In this document: positions 27,787 through 36,787 of the stretch, piece by piece
How the letters are laid out: each line of letters opens with the position of its first letter
Numbering within the stretch: position 1 is the stretch's first letter
From: Roseovarius confluentis
Lineage (GTDB): Bacteria > Pseudomonadota > Alphaproteobacteria > Rhodobacterales > Rhodobacteraceae
Reading direction: 5' to 3'
Assembly: GCF_002917925.1 (NCBI RefSeq)
Contig: NZ_PPFE01000002.1
Location: 62,001 to 126,000 of the forward strand
Length of the DNA stretch: 64,000 bases
Position numbers and translations under genes: made by a program
The notes under the pieces: generated by a model
The model's database searches: none
What the model was told of the DNA's origin: nothing
The model's input: the letters and a program-made list of their open reading frames with translations, nothing else

Positions 27787-28431
27787 ATGCCTGACAATAC
27801 TTCCAAATCATTTTCATTGAGACCATTGGAAAAGCCCGACCTGACGTGCATCACACGATGGTTTCAGGAAGTGGGAGATTTGGCGCTCTTTGATCGACAT
27901 TCGCGCGTCCCCTACGATCTGGCGACGAGTGAGAGGCTGTGGAACATGTCTGACACCCCGCAAAACGCGTACGACAATTGCTGGTTCGCGATCACGTCCA
28001 AACCCACCGGCGTTGCCGGCATCGTAGGCCTTGAGCGCATTTCGCCCGTCAACCGCGATGCGGTCATCGCACTTTATGTCGACCACGCGATCCGGCGGCA
28101 GGGAATTGGCATTCGGGCATCAGCGCTGATACTGGATTTCGCATTTCGGCAACTGGGATTGAACCGGGTGACGTCCTTCTATCGCAAGGACAACGCGGGC
28201 AGCCGCGATCTGACCAGTCAGGCCGGCTTCGAAGTGGAGGGAACGATGCGGCAAGCGTGGTTTTCCGACGGGAAGTTCCATGACATGATCGTCGTCGGTC
28301 TTCTGGCGGAGCACTGGAACACTCGACGAGACGCGCTGGCAGAAGAACTCGGAGAAACAACAGTGATCGCGTTTGGCGATGGGAAGAGTTCGGGTTCTAA
28401 ATGGCCACCGCACAGGTCGGTAACGCACTGA
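27787..28431 (+). CDS. GNAT-family N-acetyltransferase
   Basis: 214 residues. The acetyl-CoA fold is seen in SLRPLEKPDLTCITRWF, WFAITSKPTGVAGIVGLERI, AVIALYVDHAIRRQGIGIRASALILDFAFRQLGLNRVTSFYRKDNAGS and LTSQAGFEVEGTMRQAWFSDGKFHDMIVVGLL. RRQGIG is the pyrophosphate-binding motif. The layout is close to the RimJ/RimL-like branch that acetylates protein N-termini, small amines or antibiotics; the substrate is unknown. It lies 15 bp before the cyclase gene on the same strand and may be transcribed with it. Confidence 0.88.
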   Translation: MPDNTSKSFSLRPLEKPDLTCITRWFQEVGDLALFDRHSRVPYDLATSERLWNMSDTPQNAYDNCWFAITSKPTGVAGIVGLERISPVNRDAVIALYVDHAIRRQGIGIRASALILDFAFRQLGLNRVTSFYRKDNAGSRDLTSQAGFEVEGTMRQAWFSDGKFHDMIVVGLLAEHWNTRRDALAEELGETTVIAFGDGKSSGSKWPPHRSVTH

Positions 28432-28446
28432 ATGAAAGCCGGATAG

Positions 28447-30210
28447 TTGAACGCACGCGAACCAACTTTCAGACAGCGGCTCGGGGCTGTCTTGTTTGCC
28501 GATGTCGTCGGGTATTCCCGGCTCATGGGGCGGAACGAGATTGACACCTACAAGGCCTTGCGCGCCCTTCTGGAACGTCTCGAGGCGGCGTGTGTCGAAA
28601 ACGGCGGACAATTCGTCGACGTCAAGGGCGACGGCATCCTCGCCCGGTTCGACACGGCGACCGATGCCGTGCTTTTCGGCGTGGAACTGCAACGTATCAC
28701 CGAGAGCAGCAATGCCGACTTGCCCCTGGCGCAAAGGATCAGCTTTCGCGTCGGAATCCACCTTGGTGAGTTCCTGCTCGACGACCGTGGCATTCATGGC
28801 GACATCGTCAACATCGCAGCCCGACTGCAAGAACTCGCCGAACCCGGCCGTGTCTTCGTCAGTTCCAGCGTGTATGAGCAGGTGCGCAACAAGCTGCGCC
28901 TGGGCTACGAGTTTCTTGGCCCGCAAATGCTTAAGAACATCGAGCAGCCCGTCCCCATCTTCTGCATCCGAACCGAAGTCGAGGGCGCAACCATGGCGGC
29001 CACGGTTCGGCCTTCGGCGCCCTCGATGGAGTACAGTCGGCCCGACACACCTTCGATCGCCGTTCTTCCCTTCGATATCCGCGGCGGCGACGAGTCCGAA
29101 AGCTGGTTGGCGGAGGGACTGACCGAGGACATCATTCTCGCGCTTTCCAAATTCAAGAACCTGTTCGTCATCAATCGGAACACAAGCTTCGCGTTCAGGG
29201 CGCAGGATCTGCCCCCAAGCAAAACTGCCACGAAACTGGGGGTGCGCTATGTCGTGCGCGGCAGCGTTCAGCGCGCGAAGACGAAGCTGCGCATCAAGGT
29301 CGAACTGATAGACACCGACTCGTCTCGGACGATCCGGGGCCAAACCTACGACCGGGATCAGGAGGACATCTTCGAGATTCAGGACGAGATGACCGCGTCA
29401 ATCGTCGGGGCGGCCGCTGTTCTGGTCGAGGCAGAGGAACGCCGGCGCTTCAGTGCTTCGATCCCGTCCGACCTTGCGGCCTACGGCTTCGTGCTGCGGG
29501 CACAGCAGCTGATCTTCAAGTACACGCGGCGTGACAACGAGCATGCGCGAATGCTCTACGAACAGGCTTTGTCACTGGACGGGAAATATGCCCGTGCCTC
29601 CGCGGCCCTGTCGCGGACCCTGAACATCGACTGGCGCTACTCCTGGAACGCGGACGGAGATCAGGCGCTCGACACCGCTCTTTCCTATGCCCGTCGGGCC
29701 GCCGACCTCGATCCCACCGATGCGCGTGCATTCGGAGAACTCGGATTCGTTCACCTTTACCGCAAGGAACACGATGCGGCGCTCGGGGCTTATGATCGTG
29801 CGCTCAAGCTCAATCCCAACGATGCCGATTTGCTGTCGGACTATGCAGATGCCTTGGCGCATTCAGGCCAGAATGAAGAGGCGATCCAGCACCTGCAGCG
29901 CGCCATGCGATTGAACCCGTTCTTCCCGGACCAGTACCTTTGGCATCTTGGCGGGGCTTACTACAATCTAAAGCAATATGACGCGGTGATCGAAACCGTC
30001 AGCAAGATGAACAACCCGACAGAAGGTCAACGGATGCTGGCGGCAAGCTACGCGCAGCTGGGCCAAATCGAGTTGGCAAGCAAGATTGCCGAGAAACACC
30101 GTACCGTGCATCCGAACTTTTCGATCAAGCATTGGGAGCAGATAATTCCCGACCGCCTGCCAGAAGACACGCAGCATTTCCTCGAAGGATTGAAAAAGGC
30201 CGGGTTCTGA
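28447..30210 (+). CDS. Class III nucleotide cyclase with TolB-like and TPR domains
   Basis: 587 residues from a TTG start; a TAG stands right before it in frame, and the next ATG (codon 27) would cut the catalytic fold. Residues ~10-180 are a class III adenylate/guanylate cyclase: metal Asp19 in VLFADVVGYS, Asp62 in VKGDGILARF, and VNIAARLQELAEPGRVFVSS with the transition-state Asn/Arg. A middle domain (~200-325) starts with SIAVLPFDIRGG and reads like the TolB/FlgO-type domain common in such proteins. The last ~250 residues are TPR-like helices (e.g. ARAFGELGFVHLYRKEHDAALGAYDRALKLNPND). It likely makes cAMP in the cytoplasm. It converges on the repeat-protein operon, with 36 bp between the stops. 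Confidence 0.88.
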   Translation: MNAREPTFRQRLGAVLFADVVGYSRLMGRNEIDTYKALRALLERLEAACVENGGQFVDVKGDGILARFDTATDAVLFGVELQRITESSNADLPLAQRISFRVGIHLGEFLLDDRGIHGDIVNIAARLQELAEPGRVFVSSSVYEQVRNKLRLGYEFLGPQMLKNIEQPVPIFCIRTEVEGATMAATVRPSAPSMEYSRPDTPSIAVLPFDIRGGDESESWLAEGLTEDIILALSKFKNLFVINRNTSFAFRAQDLPPSKTATKLGVRYVVRGSVQRAKTKLRIKVELIDTDSSRTIRGQTYDRDQEDIFEIQDEMTASIVGAAAVLVEAEERRRFSASIPSDLAAYGFVLRAQQLIFKYTRRDNEHARMLYEQALSLDGKYARASAALSRTLNIDWRYSWNADGDQALDTALSYARRAADLDPTDARAFGELGFVHLYRKEHDAALGAYDRALKLNPNDADLLSDYADALAHSGQNEEAIQHLQRAMRLNPFFPDQYLWHLGGAYYNLKQYDAVIETVSKMNNPTEGQRMLAASYAQLGQIELASKIAEKHRTVHPNFSIKHWEQIIPDRLPEDTQHFLEGLKKAGF

Positions 30211-30246
30211 TTGCTGGACCCCGCTGCGCAAAGGTCGCGTTTGCGT

Positions 30247-30819
30247 TCAGTCGCCGGAGCCGCGCGCCTTTGCCCCGCTGACCTTGGCACCGCTCACTTT
30301 CGCGCCACTGACCTTGGCGCCACTGACTTTTGCACCGCTAACCTTCGCGCCGCTTACGCCCGCTCCGTCACCGGCGAAGTAAGCTTCCAACAGTATCTGT
30401 TCGAACATGCCGGTCGACACATCCATGCGCATGGTCTGATCGGCCTTGTCATAGCTCCAGACCCGGATATCGTTCGCGATTTGAAAGTCGGCCGCGGCGA
30501 CCCCGCTTTTGGAGGGGTCGTTGGGCGCGCGTGACCCAAGGTTGCCGGGAAGGTCCCCGTCGGTGGCACTTTGACCTTTTCCGTGAACGAGAAAGATCAC
30601 GGGTTCCGGCAGGTCGAAATACGTGCCTTCGTGGGCGAAACCGTAGATCTTGGCGAAAGCGGGTGACTGCTCGCTTTCCTTGTCATCGGCCAAGGCGAAC
30701 TGGTCATCCAGATGCTTGTTGCCGCCAAGCGTCCTGGACGCTCTGCGTTGATACACCAGATCATCAAGAATTCTGCCAAACAACAGCACTTCTGAAAAGC
30801 TCAATAAAGACTCCGACAT
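30247..30819 (-). CDS. Protein with C-terminal SGAKV repeats, candidate YcaO-TfuA substrate
   Basis: 190 residues, with a good AGAGGG ribosome site. I do not recognise a family for the first ~145 residues (opening MSESLLSFSEVLLFGRILDD); they include FDLPEPVIFLVHGKGQ and VSTGMFEQILLEAYFAGDG. There is no signal peptide. The C-terminus is AGV, five SGAKV units and one SGAKA, then RGSGD. The protein has no cysteine. It is the last gene of the operon ycaO-tfuA-zincin-this gene. A folded or helical leader followed by a short repetitive Gly/Ser/Ala-rich tail is the layout of a precursor peptide, and TfuA-dependent thioamidation does not need Cys. That it is the modified substrate is inference. Confidence 0.7.
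   Translation of the reverse strand: MSESLLSFSEVLLFGRILDDLVYQRRASRTLGGNKHLDDQFALADDKESEQSPAFAKIYGFAHEGTYFDLPEPVIFLVHGKGQSATDGDLPGNLGSRAPNDPSKSGVAAADFQIANDIRVWSYDKADQTMRMDVSTGMFEQILLEAYFAGDGAGVSGAKVSGAKVSGAKVSGAKVSGAKVSGAKARGSGD
30265..30354 (-). repeat. Six tandem 15-bp units encoding SGAK(V/A)
   Basis: Reading the minus strand, the units are SGAKV x5 and SGAKA. The codons differ from unit to unit at nearly every third position (Ser AGC/AGT, Gly GGC/GGT/GGG, Ala GCG/GCA/GCC, Lys AAG/AAA, Val GTT/GTC/GTG) while the amino acids are kept. This is protein-level conservation of an old repeat, not a fresh DNA duplication. Confidence 0.95.
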
Positions 30820-30892
30820 GATGCCCTCTTTTTAAAATGGATTAACGACAAGGTGCCACAAACAACAAAGAACGCAAAACGTATTTAGACTA

Positions 30893-32194
30893 TTACAGGT
30901 GCGGCACTCGTGTGCGCACGGAAACCGCATGGCTGTCGCCATCGGGGTCGGCCAGTCTCGGACCCACCTGCGTAAGGCCGATATCGCGCATACGGAAATT
31001 ACCCTCGATGATCCGTTGGTACGCCCCGCCGGATATGTCGCGATCGACGGCCAGCAGCGCCTCTTCGACATGCGAATAGCTCAGCCCGTCCGCTTCCAGC
31101 ATATCCCATGCGTCAGCCAGGTAAGAACCCATCAGGTCCCGCGCTTCCAAGAGCGCAATCCGAAATCCTTCGGGGTTTTGCGCGTAGCGATAATCGAACA
31201 TGTCCTGCATGACGTCGCTGTACTCGGGCGAACCTTCGAGCCGATCCGACAGGTCTTCGATTTCCGGCGTAATCAGCCCGGTTTCCAGAAGCCTTTCGTG
31301 AAACAAGTCGATCAGGATGTCGAACAGGGCCCCGGTCAGCGGTTCCGACAAAGCGTGCTCGCTCGTCCAGCCAGCCGAGAAATCCGACAACAGTTTGTCA
31401 TTGGCCGCCATGCGGATCTGGGCTGTCTGCGCCGTTTCAGCAAACCGGTTGAGCCGATTGTAAGTGTAAAGGTTTCCCCGGGTTTCCTCCAGCAGAGCCT
31501 CGACTACCGATCCGAAATGCAACGAGGCCAGAAGCGCGACCATGTCCGCGGCGGATTCGTGAAAACCGTAATATTCGCCCGACGCGTCTCCTTCAGTGGG
31601 CAGGCCGATCACGCTGTAGATCAGCGCGTGCCCGATTTCATGGGCGACAACATCGAAGTTCAGGCTGTAGGGCCTGTACTCACCCTCGTGCTCGGTGGTC
31701 CCGCCGGTCTCCAGAAAACCCCAGCCGATATGCGCATTGTCGAGGCCGGGCAGCAGCGACAATTCCAGCTTGTCGTAGTCGGACTCGAAATGCCACGGGA
31801 TCCGGCGCCCGAAATACCCTTCCCAGACATCCATCGTGAAATGCGCCGAGCCGAATAGATGCGCCGCCTCGAATTCCGGGTCATCGGGCGCGATGTGGAT
31901 GAAGTTGCCGAACTCATCGGGGATGGCCGGCGCGTTGCGCTGCCCGTTCCAGGGCGGAAGGTACATGCCCGGCCCGACGGGCCCGGGCACGATGGCGCCA
32001 TAGGATATGGTCTTACCAATGGGGTCGACCACGTACATGCGCGGCCCTGACGGACCGGGACCGATCGTACCGGGCGGGGCCGAGATCTCGACCAGTTCCA
32101 GTTCCGCCGCGTCCTCGCCGAACGGAGATTGCGGAAACAGAAGAAAGCGCGTGCCCGGCGCTTCGTCCTCTGCCGCGTAATCTGGAAACTGCAT
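30893..32194 (-). CDS. Predicted cytoplasmic zinc metallopeptidase (gluzincin-like)
   Basis: 433 residues with a strong GGAGG site 7 bp before ATG. The catalytic motif HEIGH is at residues 185-189 (VVAHEIGHALIYS), and a likely third ligand is Glu213 in FHESAADMVALL, 24 residues later; the E-x3-D spacing resembles M4/gluzincin peptidases. Two short Gly-Pro stretches (GPGPSGPRM, GPVGPGM) lie near the N-terminus. There is no signal peptide or propeptide, unlike secreted M4 enzymes, so it should act in the cytoplasm. Its place between tfuA and the repeat protein suggests that it trims the modified repeat protein. It could instead be an unrelated housekeeping peptidase. Confidence 0.75.
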   Translation of the reverse strand: MQFPDYAAEDEAPGTRFLLFPQSPFGEDAAELELVEISAPPGTIGPGPSGPRMYVVDPIGKTISYGAIVPGPVGPGMYLPPWNGQRNAPAIPDEFGNFIHIAPDDPEFEAAHLFGSAHFTMDVWEGYFGRRIPWHFESDYDKLELSLLPGLDNAHIGWGFLETGGTTEHEGEYRPYSLNFDVVAHEIGHALIYSVIGLPTEGDASGEYYGFHESAADMVALLASLHFGSVVEALLEETRGNLYTYNRLNRFAETAQTAQIRMAANDKLLSDFSAGWTSEHALSEPLTGALFDILIDLFHERLLETGLITPEIEDLSDRLEGSPEYSDVMQDMFDYRYAQNPEGFRIALLEARDLMGSYLADAWDMLEADGLSYSHVEEALLAVDRDISGGAYQRIIEGNFRMRDIGLTQVGPRLADPDGDSHAVSVRTRVPHL

Positions 32195-32237
32195 CAGATC
32201 CTCCGTTGCGTTTCGGCCCCCATGCCTCGAGCCAGAA

Positions 32238-33566
32238 TCAGCCCTGGCTTCCGGCCCTCAGCGCGTCGTCTTCATCCAAGTTATACAGGAACTCGCGTGC
32301 GATCAGAGCGATAAGTTCATCGCGCCCGTCCAGCCCAAGCGACCGGGCGAATGCGTCCGGGTCGTCGGGTACAGGGCGGCCCAGGCGGGTTTCGAAAAAC
32401 CAGACAAGCAGACGCAGCCTGTCCGGCGATGCCTGCGCGCCATTTTCGACAATAGACCGGGCCTTGGCCTCGGCCCGCGCCTTCAACTCGGAATAGGCCC
32501 CGGACCAGCGCAGCTCGGACATAATATGCCCGTCCAGCCCGGATGACCGCGCGGCTCGTGTGTCTTCGATCAGCGCAGCCTCCGCCAGCAGCGCCTCATA
32601 GCAGGTCTCGTCTAGGTCGTTCGCCTCCAGCCAGTCCAGAACAGCGTCACGACGCGACAGGTTGTTCAAGCGGCGATGCCGGTCCATCACAGCGCGCAGC
32701 GTTTCGCGATCCGCCCGGGCACCGCGGCGCTCCGCATCCTCTATGGCAAGACCGCGCAACATGGCCTTGTTGCGCGTGGTCTCATACCTCTCCGGGTCCA
32801 GCCGCAACTCGTCCAGCACGGCCTTCGACGCAGCGGCTCCGGCATCGGTTTCGCCCTCGATGCGCCGGACCAAGCCTTGCCAGGCCAACGTCCGCTCGAC
32901 CCTATGGGCCTGGTCAGTTTGGATGTCATTCTCGAGGAACGCAGCCATGCGGACCAGCATGGCCCGGGCGTCTTCGCCTTTCGCGTCGACCTTGCCCGAA
33001 GGCAGCCAGGGGAATAACGCGGCAAGGCTCGGCTCATGCAGAAGTCGGGCGGAAATCTCATCCCAGGTTCGGCTCTTGTAGTGCAGCGATTTTGCCGTCG
33101 CGTTCAAGAGTTCGGCCGCCTCGGGCGTCAGGACCTTGGCAGCAACGGCGCGTTCCGCCGTGGCGCGGACGGATACCATCGGCTCGCTCAGGGCCATGAA
33201 CCCAAGCTCGGCCGGCCCGTGCTGGACCGCCACGTCGTCATCGTCGGCAATCTCACCTTTCAGGTAGGCCTCGAATATCGCACCGACGCCGATCATGCCG
33301 AAATCGTGCAGTTCGGCGGCCCGCAGGGCCCCTATACTGGCGCTTCCGAAAACTGGAATGCCCTGCTCCATCGCCCAAAGGATTTCCTTGTGCCAGACCG
33401 ACGGCACCCCTTCGAAATAGCCGTCGATAATGCCGATGGCCGGTGGGCACCGACGCGCCACGCGATAAACGTCGCCCTGTGCCACGGGCGGCAGAACCTC
33501 GGCGTCCAGTGCCGCGAGAATGGCCTCGGCGTCTATCGTCGGGCCTGCAAAAATCACTGGCTTCAT
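32238..33566 (-). CDS. TfuA-like protein, YcaO partner
   Basis: 442 residues. The N-terminal ~200 residues are the TfuA core: VIFAGPTIDAEAILAAL, PPAIGIIDGYFEGVPSVWHKEILWAMEQGIPVFGSASIGALRAAEL. The C-terminal half is a long helical extension. TfuA was first found in the trifolitoxin cluster; with YcaO it takes part in backbone thioamidation, as shown for archaeal methyl-coenzyme M reductase and for thiovarsolin-type peptides. The start overlaps the ycaO stop (ATGA), so the two are made together. Confidence 0.9.
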   Translation of the reverse strand: MKPVIFAGPTIDAEAILAALDAEVLPPVAQGDVYRVARRCPPAIGIIDGYFEGVPSVWHKEILWAMEQGIPVFGSASIGALRAAELHDFGMIGVGAIFEAYLKGEIADDDDVAVQHGPAELGFMALSEPMVSVRATAERAVAAKVLTPEAAELLNATAKSLHYKSRTWDEISARLLHEPSLAALFPWLPSGKVDAKGEDARAMLVRMAAFLENDIQTDQAHRVERTLAWQGLVRRIEGETDAGAAASKAVLDELRLDPERYETTRNKAMLRGLAIEDAERRGARADRETLRAVMDRHRRLNNLSRRDAVLDWLEANDLDETCYEALLAEAALIEDTRAARSSGLDGHIMSELRWSGAYSELKARAEAKARSIVENGAQASPDRLRLLVWFFETRLGRPVPDDPDAFARSLGLDGRDELIALIAREFLYNLDEDDALRAGSQG

Positions 33567-34762
33567 GCGGCACCGGCCTGCACGGCGCGCGCCCGTGGGC
33601 CCGGTATAAAATCCGGGTCGTCATGCGGTGCCTCCAGCCCCGGAATGACCGCGCGGATCACCGAAATCCCGAATTCCGGACGGGACAGGTCGACCGTCAC
33701 CACTTGGTCTATCCCGGCGGAGGACAGACGCGCCAACAACAATGCAAGGTCGTCCTCGAAGGTTTCCGTTGTCACATTCGGACCGTCCAGGAAACTGCCT
33801 GCTGGCGGCGCGTTGGCGATCAGGTGACGCACGTAGCGCCCTCTGGCCGCCACGGCCTCGGTCGTGAATTCCGAAGGGTCCAGATCGTCACGCGCCCCGG
33901 AAATATAGGTCAGCCGGGTCTGCGCCGCCTCTGTCACCGCGCGCAGAAGGGCGATGGCGCGGTCCGGGTGGCAGCCATCGCCGATTCCGATATGGCCATG
34001 GCTGTCGCCTGCCTCGCAAATCATGCAGCGAAAGCTGGGCACGCCGACATCCGACGTCGTGTCCCACAGCCCGACATCCAAGCCAGCACCGACCAATCGG
34101 TTGAGTGCATCCCGGCACCTTGGGTCGTCAACCGATGCGGGGTCGATCCGCGTGTCGCCGGACGCGTAATGCCACAAGGTTGTCGCGTCCCGCTCGATCA
34201 GTTCACAGATCGCATGGCAGGTCGCCTCGGTGGTGTCATTGCCGGACGCAAGCCCGTTCGTCGTGCGCGGAAACGCGCCGTGACCGCCATGCGGCGGCTC
34301 GGTATAGTCGGTATCGACCATCTCCAGCGGCACCCAACAGGCGGCATCCCGACCAAGGTCCCGCCCTTCGACCCACAAGATCCGCCGATGCGGGTCAAAG
34401 CTGGCGCCAGTGACTTTAGGCAGGCGAGAAACGTCCGCAACAGCCACCTCGGCCTGCAATTCGGCGAAAGATTCGCGGCGGATCGGCCGCACGATCCTTT
34501 CCGCATGCCAACTCTCGATGGCTTCCATGACACCCGAAACCTGCGCCGCCTCCAGCGACAGCCCTTTGCCCAGCGACACCGCGACCGAGCGGGAGTTCGG
34601 CCGCGTCACCATCACCGTGGGCAATCCGATACGATCCAGACCCGTTAGGTTGGCGATGCGTGTGATCCCCATGCGGGACAAGTGAGGCCTGACACGCTCC
34701 ATCGTTTGGGCCGGATCGCACAGGCGATGCGTATCAAGCAGATATTCTTTTCTCGACGACAT
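33563..34762 (-). CDS. ycaO: YcaO-domain ATP-dependent peptide-modifying enzyme
   Basis: 399 residues. YcaO proteins use ATP to activate peptide-backbone amides. Visible features: VSGVMEAIESWHAE (Glu80, Glu83), TNGLASGNDTTEATCHAICELIERDA (Glu179, Glu187, Glu190), and the C-terminal RAVIPGLEAP...PGPRARAVQ. The NGLASGN form and C-terminal PGPRA are seen in YcaO proteins paired with TfuA, in keeping with the tfuA gene next door, and argue for thioamide rather than azoline formation; there is no adjacent E1-like or dehydrogenase gene. First gene of the minus-strand operon. Confidence 0.93.
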   Translation of the reverse strand: MSSRKEYLLDTHRLCDPAQTMERVRPHLSRMGITRIANLTGLDRIGLPTVMVTRPNSRSVAVSLGKGLSLEAAQVSGVMEAIESWHAERIVRPIRRESFAELQAEVAVADVSRLPKVTGASFDPHRRILWVEGRDLGRDAACWVPLEMVDTDYTEPPHGGHGAFPRTTNGLASGNDTTEATCHAICELIERDATTLWHYASGDTRIDPASVDDPRCRDALNRLVGAGLDVGLWDTTSDVGVPSFRCMICEAGDSHGHIGIGDGCHPDRAIALLRAVTEAAQTRLTYISGARDDLDPSEFTTEAVAARGRYVRHLIANAPPAGSFLDGPNVTTETFEDDLALLLARLSSAGIDQVVTVDLSRPEFGISVIRAVIPGLEAPHDDPDFIPGPRARAVQAGAA

Positions 34763-34964
34763 GCGAATGACGGTGCTTTCAGCAGTTTGAACAATTTTAA
34801 GAAAGCAATTGCATCAACAATCCAGTTCTCGTTTCAAGAGTGCGTCATCATCCCTCGCCGGTCAATGTGACTGATGATGATCGCCCAAGGGCACCCGTTC
34901 TTCGCCAGACTTCGAAAAAGTGGTATACCGGATGCAAACCAGAGCCACCTGACGGAGCCAGCGG
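34763..34964. promoter_or_regulatory. Divergent promoter region of the ycaO operon and the membrane sensor
   Basis: A 202-bp gap, AT-richer than the genes around it, with the starts of ycaO (minus) and the cNMP-binding membrane protein (plus) on either side. Both promoters must be here or nearby. I see an imperfect dyad CATCATC...GATGATG (about 34846-34880) but no convincing canonical TGTGA-N6-TCACA Crp site. Confidence 0.45.
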
Positions 34965-35672
34965 ATGCTGTATGGTATCCCCGAAGACGTTTACCATTGG
35001 ATCGGATATTGCGGTGTCGCGCTTTATCTGGGGGCGTATGCCTTATTGCAAACCGGAGTGATCCGCGGACACGGCTATCCGTACGTCATCCTGAATTTCC
35101 TCGCGGCGTCGTTTGTCCTTGTCGGTTTGACCGTCGCCTTCAACCTGTCTTCCGCGATCATTCAGATTTTCTGGATCATCATCAGCCTTGTCGGCCTGAC
35201 GCGCATGTTGCTTCTGGATCGCATGGCCCGGTTGAACGAGGAGGAAAGCGCCTTGGTCGCGAGGATCTTTCCCGACTTTTCCAGGACAGCCGCGCGCAAC
35301 TTCTTTGATCACGGCATCTGGCTCGACGCCGAACCGGGCATCAGGATCACGCAGGAAAACGAACCCGTCACGCACCTGACTTACCTCGCTAAAGGTTCGG
35401 CTGACGTGTTTTCTTCGTCTGAAAAGATCGGTACGGTTGTCGGCGGGCTCGTCGGCGAAATGAACGTCATGCAAAAGGGGCCTGCCTCCGCGACCGTGCG
35501 CACGGCAGAGCCAAGCCGTCTCTTCATGATATCGTCTGAATCCCTCTCGGAACTGGCAAAGTCCGACATCGAATTCCGGCGCGCGCTGGAAAGCGGCATG
35601 CACCTGGATACCCGCAGCAAGCTGGTTGCGGCCAACAAGGCCCTGACACGACAGAAGGCAGCGGCAGAGTGA
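34965..35672 (+). CDS. Three-helix membrane protein with a cyclic-nucleotide-binding-like domain
   Basis: 235 residues. Three membrane helices (about 12-33, 38-60, 62-84; WIGYCGVALYLGAYALL, YVILNFLAASFVLVGLTVAF, IIQIFWIIISLVGLTRMLLL) are followed by a cNMP-binding-like domain (HLTYLAKGSADVF, VGGLVGEMNVMQKGPASATVRTAEPSRLFMI). The Arg that holds the cyclic phosphate in Crp-type pockets (PRSATV) is Ala here (PASATV). Three helices plus an atypical cNMP domain is the layout of Popeye-type proteins and of bacterial CBU_0592-domain proteins. Start chosen for GGAG upstream. It overlaps the next gene by 4 bp. Whether it binds nucleotide is open. Confidence 0.8.
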   Translation: MLYGIPEDVYHWIGYCGVALYLGAYALLQTGVIRGHGYPYVILNFLAASFVLVGLTVAFNLSSAIIQIFWIIISLVGLTRMLLLDRMARLNEEESALVARIFPDFSRTAARNFFDHGIWLDAEPGIRITQENEPVTHLTYLAKGSADVFSSSEKIGTVVGGLVGEMNVMQKGPASATVRTAEPSRLFMISSESLSELAKSDIEFRRALESGMHLDTRSKLVAANKALTRQKAAAE

Positions 35673-36043
35673 CCGAGACCGGGATCCTGATCTTTCTCGT
35701 CCTCGTACAGGTCAAACACTATTTCGCGGACTTTCGATGGCAGACGGGTGAAATGCTCGCCCACAAGGGGAAGTTAATGCACCCCGCGGGACTGGCGCAT
35801 GCGGGTCTTCACGGTTTGCTCAGTTTGCCGGTCATGGCGCTTGCGGGTCTTGGCGGGCCGGGTCTGATCGTCGCGCTGGGATTGGCCGAGGTTTTCGTGC
35901 ATCACGTGATCGACTGGCAGAAGGCCAACCTGCAGACAGAAAAGGCCGACCTTGGCGAGGCCGGGTTCTGGCGGCTGGTCGGCCTGGATCAGGCAGCGCA
36001 TCAGCTGACCTATGTGGCGATTCTTGCGGTCGGTTTGCTATAA
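35669..36043 (+). CDS. DUF3307-family membrane protein
   Basis: 124 residues from a GTG that overlaps the preceding stop (GTGA). It resembles DUF3307 proteins: LVLVQVKHYFADFRWQT near the N-terminus, several hydrophobic helices, and HHVIDWQKAN. The His-rich helices suggest metal or lipid-head contact, but no activity is known. Translationally coupled to the cNMP-type membrane protein and followed by a Crp/Fnr gene. Confidence 0.82.
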   Translation: MTETGILIFLVLVQVKHYFADFRWQTGEMLAHKGKLMHPAGLAHAGLHGLLSLPVMALAGLGGPGLIVALGLAEVFVHHVIDWQKANLQTEKADLGEAGFWRLVGLDQAAHQLTYVAILAVGLL

Positions 36044-36085
36044 TTGGTTTCACTGGTTTGCACACGCGCGCTAACGGAGCATTCG

Positions 36086-36787
36086 ATGAACATCGCGGAC
36101 AAGCAGAAGCGCAAATACCTCAGCTCCTGCCCGCTTTTCTCGGACCTGAAGAAAGACGTGGCCGAACGGATAGCGGGGCGGGCCCGCGGCGTGTTTCTTC
36201 CGCGCGGGCAGGTTCTGTTTCACGAGGGCGATCCGTCTGACGGTCTTTATGTCCTGTGTACTGGGCTGGTTCGGGTCAGTATCGTCAATACGGACGGTGA
36301 CGTGCTGACCCTCGCGGTGCCGGAACACGGCGCGCCCCTGGGCGAGATGACTTTGGTAAGCCCAGATCCGCGGTCGGCAACGGTGACCGCGCTGGAGGAT
36401 TCCAGCCTGCTTCACCTTGAAACGGGCACGATGGTCGCGCTTCTGGCCGAAGAACCGGCACTTGCTGCGCATTTGATCCAATTTTTGTCGCAGCGGTTGC
36501 GCGAGTCGAACGAGACGCTTCAGAACTTCGCATTCGAGAATCTGTCACAGCGGCTGCTTCAGAAGCTTGCGGAACTCGGATTGAAACACGGCACGCTCAA
36601 CGAAGAAGTGCTGGACCTTGGCCGGAAGTTTTCTCAAAGCGCGTTGGCCGAGATGCTGGGTGTCACGCGGGAGGCGATCAACAAGCAGCTGAAGCTTTTG
36701 CAGGACCAGAGCAAGATCACGATGCGGAAGGGCATCATTCAGATCGCGTCACCTGCGGATATCGTCAAGAAAAAACTCGGTCACTGA
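36086..36787 (+). CDS. Crp/Fnr-family transcriptional regulator
   Basis: 233 residues. The N-terminal cNMP-binding fold has LPRGQVLFHEGDPSDGLYVLCTGLVRVS and GEMTLVSPDPRSATVTAL, with the phosphate-contacting Arg present. The C-terminal winged HTH is seen in SQSALAEMLGVTREAINKQLKLLQ. There is no N-terminal cysteine set, so it is not an oxygen-sensing Fnr; binding of cAMP or a similar nucleotide is likely. I used the ATG at 36086 rather than an upstream in-frame GTG. It completes a block of nucleotide-signalling genes around the ycaO operon. Confidence 0.9.
   Translation: MNIADKQKRKYLSSCPLFSDLKKDVAERIAGRARGVFLPRGQVLFHEGDPSDGLYVLCTGLVRVSIVNTDGDVLTLAVPEHGAPLGEMTLVSPDPRSATVTALEDSSLLHLETGTMVALLAEEPALAAHLIQFLSQRLRESNETLQNFAFENLSQRLLQKLAELGLKHGTLNEEVLDLGRKFSQSALAEMLGVTREAINKQLKLLQDQSKITMRKGIIQIASPADIVKKKLGH

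Follow-up and report, generated by a model that had tools for sequence, protein, structure and literature searches.

A YcaO/TfuA gene cassette of Roseovarius confluentis encoding a candidate repeat-tailed peptide precursor, a zincin and a convergent nucleotidyl cyclase

Genes of the cassette

The subject of this analysis is a gene cassette in a 64,000-nucleotide stretch of the Roseovarius confluentis genome (assembly GCF_002917925.1, contig NZ_PPFE01000002.1, positions 62,001 to 126,000; hereafter the window). Four minus-strand genes encode, in this order, a YcaO protein, a TfuA protein, a zincin and a protein with a repetitive C-terminal tail, termed REP here. A convergent gene encodes CYC, which combines a class III nucleotidyl cyclase with a tetratricopeptide repeat (TPR) part and is preceded by a GNAT acetyltransferase gene (Table 1). 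Judged from its sequence, the cassette is best read as a new family of YcaO/TfuA-dependent precursors of ribosomally synthesized and post-translationally modified peptides (RiPPs), together with a zincin and an attached cyclase.

The ycaO and tfuA genes overlap by 4 bases, and gaps of 43 and 73 bases separate tfuA from the zincin gene and the latter from the REP gene; the four look co-transcribed. The convergent ends of CYC and REP are 36 bases apart, and 15 bases separate the GNAT gene from CYC. All four minus-strand open reading frames, with their short gaps and overlap, lie where the original prediction, made from the letters of the window, had placed them; its gene set is incomplete in that the cyclase-TPR and GNAT genes were missed. 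A scan of nine proteins encoded from 27787 to 36787 found no E1-like (ocin-ThiF) partner, and the cassette has no exporter. YcaO is the sole PF02624 match of the 4.46-Mb source genome (G000; G and L numbers denote genomes and loci), and the sole PF00211 match, CYC, lies in the same cassette. In a promoter and terminator scan the counts were not in excess of those in shuffles (2 versus 1.3; 4 versus 4.0).

Table 1. Features of the cassette and its neighbourhood in the window (aa, amino acids; cNMP, cyclic nucleotide)
Feature	Positions	Strand	Description
YcaO	33563-34762	minus	399 aa; Pfam YcaO, E 1.7e-84; putative backbone thioamide-forming enzyme
TfuA with C-terminal extension	32238-33566	minus	442 aa; Pfam, E 1.2e-45; YcaO sulfur-delivery partner by homology
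Zincin	30893-32194	minus	433 aa; HExxH...ExxxD metallopeptidase-like; putative maturation protease
REP	30247-30819	minus	190 aa; putative precursor: residues 1-154 conserved leader/scaffold domain, then C-terminal core
REP repeat tail (putative multi-copy core)	30268-30357	minus	six 15-base units
CYC	28447-30210	plus	class III nucleotidyl cyclase and TPR protein, convergent with REP
GNAT acetyltransferase	27787-28431	plus	upstream of CYC; retained in close clades only
Membrane protein with cNMP-binding domain	34965-35672	plus	neighbour in close Roseovarius loci, again in L167; system membership uncertain
CRP-family regulator	36044-36787	plus	system membership uncertain

The repeat protein and its partner enzymes

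The tail of REP consists of six VSGAK units (residues 155-184), as the original prediction had noticed in the form of SGAK-type units, and is followed by ARGSGD; the array is the top-scoring tandem repeat in the window. The six units are encoded by six different DNA sequences with zero amino-acid change (synonymous differences pS 0.93, non-synonymous pN 0), so that the repeat is a product neither of chance nor of recent duplication. Across the repeat units of 59 genes the means are pS 0.75 and pN 0.06, the latter raised by serine codon switches, and such a high pS next to a near-zero pN indicates that the peptide unit is held by selection. Relatives carry 5-12 units, as caught by the pattern used. 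REP is devoid of cysteine, and a crude hydropathy scan found no signal-peptide-like start in either REP or the zincin.

The N-terminal domain of REP is conserved, with 13 invariant columns in 11 sequences, and nothing in Pfam, NCBIfam or PHROGs matches it significantly. A Nif11 or nitrile-hydratase-like leader peptide (NHLP) domain was considered and rejected for the window REP, with no leader-model match at E up to 1, and profile searches of the PDB with the zincin and REP alignments gave nothing useful. At the same position, related loci carry VSGAR eight times (L093), YSGGKA five to seven times (L015-L017), RAVMAS-type units twelve times (L095), GMNV four times (L096), DLVGRS four times (L098), GMSV three times (Paracoccus L163) or SRSGG three times (L122 and L123); unrepeated tails occur as well, for example KRSPTMYAGRMQLGHRGGRLNE in L097 and a basic tail in L094. 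The combination looked for in a precursor, a conserved leader with a variable core, was thus found in the cluster, and the tail appears to evolve like a RiPP core. The REP proteins of L095, L108 and L124 were assigned by position, leader homology coming from hhalign, where it is moderate for L095 (90%) and L108 (96%) and weak for L124 (29%). Many Ruegeria and Leisingera REP proteins contain an inserted stretch of about 100 amino acids (L060 7725-8660; L032 and L044 8001-8849), which matches phage virion families in L032 and L044 (phrog_2647 head decoration; tail fibre in L044) and gives a weak phage match in L060 (0.093).

The closest solved relative of YcaO is MJ1094 (6pe3, 1.7e-38), ahead of TruD, LynD and MusD, and the closest PDB entry to TfuA is 6xp8 (3.3e-25). 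The models of the McrA thioamidation pair (TIGR03266, NF033432) were tried and rejected, the scores staying below the curated cut-offs (225.2 versus 365 and 190.1 versus 235.2). The C-terminal extension of TfuA (residues ~208-442) is shorter or absent in some relatives, for example L065, L067 and L093; its resemblance to TIGR04500 peptide-maturation proteins is faint (0.0012).

An HExxH motif with a downstream ExxxD is the signature of M4-like gluzincins. The zincin contains HEIGH and, downstream, ESAAD, and an alignment of 73 sequences shows at least 95% identity at each of the HE..H and E...D residues. No Pfam family was above cut-off, the only match being a sub-threshold one to Reprolysin_4 (0.014); the M4 family is not matched by the window protein and is approached by its distant relative in L112 (0.0011, 19.9 of 22.4 bits).

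The class III residues of CYC are intact, D19, N122 and R126 being kept in 49/49 sequences each and D62 in 47/49; these are presumably the catalytic positions. The C-terminal half of CYC aligns at 1.7e-10 (40.1 of 400 bits) with TIGR04510, “putative peptide modification system cyclase”; CYC also matches TIGR03903, “TOMM system kinase/cyclase fusion protein” (5.3e-7, 27.9 of 705.75 bits). The cyclase of L095 matches the latter model over residues 38-1037 (8.7e-125, 418 of 705.75 bits) and that of L167 with 107.7 of 705.75 bits; none of the three cyclases scanned reaches the curated cut-offs. Three architectures recur, which are cyclase-TPR, cyclase-AAA_16-TPR and, in L094, BTAD-cyclase-TPR.

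Occurrence among relatives

A search for REP in genome contigs gave 56 loci, reduced to 52 by leaving out L070-L073, which have SGAKV-like stretches only and no cassette; L018 and L014 are the same contig, of which L018 is counted. The tblastn queries came mostly from the window cassette, and very diverged members could have been missed. CYC is convergent with REP in all 52 loci, within 400 bases in 48 and at 1.0-2.4 kb in four, and is thus a constant partner. The genes ycaO, tfuA and zincin are present in 48 of the 52; in L039, L048 and L050 they lie about 20 kb off, on a contig of equal length that is taken as the same one, and L054 was probably severed from them by a contig break. Homologues of REP found mainly without ycaO and tfuA, the outcome that the original prediction had named as damaging, were therefore not what this search returned. 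GNAT is matched in 48 of the 52 loci as well; L041, L065 and L066 run out close to the end of a contig, and L063 has no GNAT in the locus. In three genomes (L118, L119, L120) some 20 kb separate ycaO-tfuA-zincin from REP-CYC-GNAT and the strand is reversed, which is probably a shared rearrangement.

Within the genus, REP is present in 7 of 60 genomes (E 1.7e-28 or better); the underlying search matched 10 of 100 genomes, among which G033, G041 and G092, with matches in or near the tail only, were not counted. TfuA occurs in eight of the 60, including all seven REP genomes, and is absent from 52 of the 53 others. The chance of this overlap under random placement is 8/C(60,7), about 2e-8, uncorrected for kinship. 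Members of the family occur across Alphaproteobacteria, among them Rhodobacterales and Rhizobium, and on such well-known plasmids as R. etli p42c and R. johnstonii 3841 pRL11.

The sole TfuA-positive genome of the genus without REP, G003, carries at L167 (1830-15164) a ycaO-tfuA pair with a methyltransferase, a 1301-aa cyclase-type AAA_16-TPR protein, a CRP regulator and a membrane cNMP-binding protein that shares 41% identity with its counterpart in the window. The cyclase assignment rests on TIGR03903 and a 55-residue match to CYC, without a PF00211 match. The precursor of this locus (285 aa) combines numerous RRVAE-like repeats with a leader of the nitrile-hydratase-like kind (TIGR03793, 3.7e-10, 39.5 of 50.9 bits). 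Its gene content marks L167 as a parallel system, of the same design with another precursor.

A scan of the class with the zincin profile matched 11 of 385 genomes, eight of them strongly (E 3.1e-104 or better), and the REP profile matched six genomes. TfuA is adjacent in all eight strong cases and YcaO in seven, and for seven a cyclase was seen (the contig of G130 has only 4.6 kb); G292 has its sole YcaO on a different contig, where a CYC relative (40%) lies about 2 kb away. The zincin matches of G205, G243, G343, G638 and G709 are weak, with no ycaO or tfuA in the stretches examined, and were set apart. The scan of the phylum matched 9 of 299 genomes and added four strong ones, all of one family. 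The zincin gene directly follows tfuA in the strong relatives, except for a type in Rhizobium without ycaO and tfuA. Directly upstream of ycaO, L095, L097, L098 and L108-L111 encode proteins of 1002-1115 aa that form one sequence cluster; the three scanned (L095, L098, L111) are cyclase-AAA_16 proteins with TPR matches below the Pfam cut-offs.

Among 130 genomes of Rhizobium (the genus of G670) the zincin is matched in 69 and strongly in 59, comprising 21 of a closer and 38 of a second type, and TfuA lies within 1 kb for at least 23 of these 38. TfuA itself is found in 124 of the 130, including all 21 with the closer type, which implies other roles of TfuA there. For the closer type, where ycaO and tfuA are not beside REP, either REP would be modified in trans or the modification would be dispensable. 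A different contig of G725, and likewise of G759, carries a ycaO-tfuA pair together with a TPR regulator, and in G838 the YcaO and TfuA genes found are apart. At L157, L159, L168 and L170 Rhizobium ycaO and/or tfuA genes stand beside large TPR regulators without a REP match; the N-terminus of these regulators looks BTAD-like by eye, Pfam giving TPR only for L157. Small proteins follow REP in several Rhizobium loci (L122 10983-11321; L124 9694-10143; L126 9698-9988; L166 8690-9085).

Proposed pathway, alternatives and known systems

REP would be an uncharacterised RiPP precursor, with its N-terminal domain of about 150 residues as a long leader and the tail as a multi-copy core. YcaO, by ATP-dependent activation of the backbone, and TfuA, by delivery of sulfur, would convert amides of the repeats into thioamides; TfuA is described as a hydrolase that passes sulfur together with a thiocarboxylated carrier in the accessible part of PMC13063428. 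The lack of cysteine in REP excludes cysteine-derived thiazolines and, together with the missing E1-like partner among the scanned neighbours, makes thioamides in the repeats the likeliest change. That REP is the substrate of YcaO and TfuA is considered probable. The cytosolic zincin would remove the leader or free repeat units, and a release of short peptides from REP is narrowly favoured. GNAT, in the close clades, may acetylate the peptide or its lysines. Finally, the TPR part of CYC would read the product, or modified REP itself, inside the cell, upon which CYC would make a cyclic nucleotide. A functional coupling of some kind between the modified repeat core and the cyclase is given a slight preference, and direct sensing of the product by CYC is put forward tentatively, as rather less than an even chance. 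The most far-reaching version is rather unlikely in its entirety: a self-contained signalling module in which a thioamide-hardened multi-copy peptide, cut in the cytosol, would be the ligand of a TPR-bearing cyclase that makes a cyclic nucleotide, the design recurring with unrelated precursors (REP and the NHLP type of L167) and three cyclase architectures.

Several observations weigh against this pathway. The loci are related, and their counts are not independent. Plasmids p42c of R. etli CFN 42 and those of R. leguminosarum 4B carry cyclase-zincin-REP without adjacent ycaO and tfuA, and in G725, G759 and G838, which have the closer zincin type, YcaO is only on contigs other than that of the zincin. 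The RiPP reading of the original prediction is supported in part: the tail varies like a core, but the modifying genes are not adjacent on some Rhizobium plasmids. Paracoccus L163 keeps ycaO-tfuA-REP together and has no zincin beside REP, and the tail is not repetitive in L094, L097, L108, L109, L111, L124-L126, L162 and L166. No exporter accompanies the genes. CYC has arginine in 41/49 sequences where a purine-selecting lysine presumably is usual; some of these groups are rich in TPR and class III cyclase proteins, the base rate coming from G000 only; and the window-type GNAT recurs, by sequence, in one of 21 distant loci (L093), the Paracoccus locus having a different, shorter GNAT.

The best-surviving alternative, itself rather improbable, is a protein-borne modification, in which REP would be structural or regulatory, its tail thioamidated in place like McrA or uL16 and left uncut, and the zincin a chaperone-like or regulatory relative of proteases. 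As leaders go, the N-terminal domain is long, and it is conserved; an exporter-free cassette would fit, and thioamides in proteins are documented (PMC5589413, PMC13063428). However, copy number and unit sequence vary while the REP domain stays, and at least 95% of the aligned zincins retain the metal-binding residues. Less probable still is a core of cyclase, zincin and REP to which YcaO and TfuA are accessory, modifying another substrate. The Rhizobium cassettes without ycaO and tfuA agree with it, as does the excess of TfuA over zincin matches in the 130 Rhizobium genomes, but zincin-REP comes directly after ycaO and tfuA in Rhodobacterales and in most distant loci, and the Paracoccus genes stay together even where the zincin is missing.

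An unlikely reading makes the tail a sticky linker or a short beta-helix of pentapeptide repeats that has nothing to do with YcaO chemistry, the neighbours forming a signalling operon. AKVSG fits the pentapeptide pattern, and the sole Pfam match of REP is Pentapeptide on the tail; it is sub-threshold (0.19; 11.8 versus a cut-off of 20.2 bits), however, and the PF00805 cut-off is passed by one of six relatives scanned (L065, 25.5 versus 20.2). Moreover, the same position can be taken by units that differ in sequence and length (4, 5 and 6 residues) or by unrepeated tails, and REP tracks tfuA in the genus. Pycsar systems combine a PycC cyclase with a cNMP-binding effector, and a defence island of that kind, with the membrane protein as effector and REP/YcaO as sensor module, is very improbable: CYC and the L095 cyclase do match PycC models (1.1e-7 and 7.7e-22), the membrane protein is a neighbour of the cassette in close Roseovarius loci and also occurs in L167, and the distribution is patchy (7/60), but the PycC models seem to recognise cyclases of class III in general, PADLOC gave only general cyclase and cNMP-domain matches on the cassette, the effector models cover only the cNMP-binding part of the membrane protein, and its gene occurs in 6 of 78 loci searched (L014 and L018 being one contig).

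With regard to known systems, the precursor pathway preferred here is close to that of the thiovarsolins of Streptomyces varsoviensis, whose var genes likewise combine YcaO, TfuA and a repeated-core precursor. In the accessible part of that report the products are short N-acetylated thioamidated tripeptides cut from the repeats, no specific protease is assigned to the cluster and acetylation is ascribed to an endogenous enzyme (PMC6511847). The window cassette, in contrast, has a linked protease-like gene and, in close clades, an acetyltransferase gene; the thiovarsolins are actinobacterial with an APR core, whereas REP has a conserved domain of some 150 aa and a linked cyclase. Membership in the thiovarsolin family was rejected, as the APR/GPR core repeats described there are absent from REP. 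YcaO-TfuA thioamidation of a glycine in McrA shares the overlapping ycaO-tfuA genes, MJ1094 as the nearest solved YcaO and the glycine found in the repeat, but its substrate, according to the part of the source available (PMC5589413), is a large archaeal enzyme unlike REP.

NHLP/Nif11-leader RiPP systems share a long protein-like leader, a variable core and YcaO (PMC2887384, accessible part); L167, where YcaO-TfuA and a cyclase-type protein accompany an NHLP-like precursor, is an example, whereas the window REP matches neither leader type. The “TfuA-related” regions that antiSMASH reports in Rhizobium and Ruegeria have the same anchor gene, and the available parts of the two reports name no zincin, cyclase or REP-like precursor (PMC12993520, PMC8120280); precursors of Ruegeria/Rhizobium TfuA clusters are there called Nif11-like (PMC8120280), which REP is not. 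Strain SL42, with such a region (2.2), also carries L125.

TIGR03903 and TIGR04510 are the curators' cyclases of peptide-modification systems, the former covering the L095 cyclase nearly full-length, so that a connection with cyclases is in itself nothing new; no kinase domain was seen here, and the present cassette is set apart by its precursor, its zincin and the pairing with TfuA. The literature searched contained no paper naming these models. In RRNPP-type receptors a TPR protein binds a processed peptide. They are likened to CYC by description only, as a TPR protein that may be a receptor; the output here would be a cyclic nucleotide, and the cassette has no export or import genes.

The literature covered, with bioRxiv and most subscription papers lying outside it, holds no account of this gene set, in keeping with the original prediction, which knew of no such system; repeat precursors with YcaO and TfuA are known, as in the thiovarsolins. 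If the reading as a precursor holds, REP would add a RiPP family with a leader domain unmatched in the databases searched, which mining tuned to short precursors would probably miss. If CYC reads the product, a testable reason would be at hand for the recurrence of cyclases beside YcaO systems, which NCBIfam curators have named and for which the literature searched offers no published mechanism.

In the window, a DUF3307 protein sits with the membrane cNMP-binding protein and the CRP regulator (34965-36787). The latter two are retained in L012-L014, L018 and L028. The membrane protein was rejected as a fixed member of the cassette, full-length homologues occurring without TfuA in five genus genomes (G001, G010, G025, G029, G040). 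On a Nostoc plasmid (L165, 7391-15154), a zincin relative lies beside radical SAM, ferritin-like and PAP2/vanadium-peroxidase-like genes, which is perhaps another peptide-modifying cluster.

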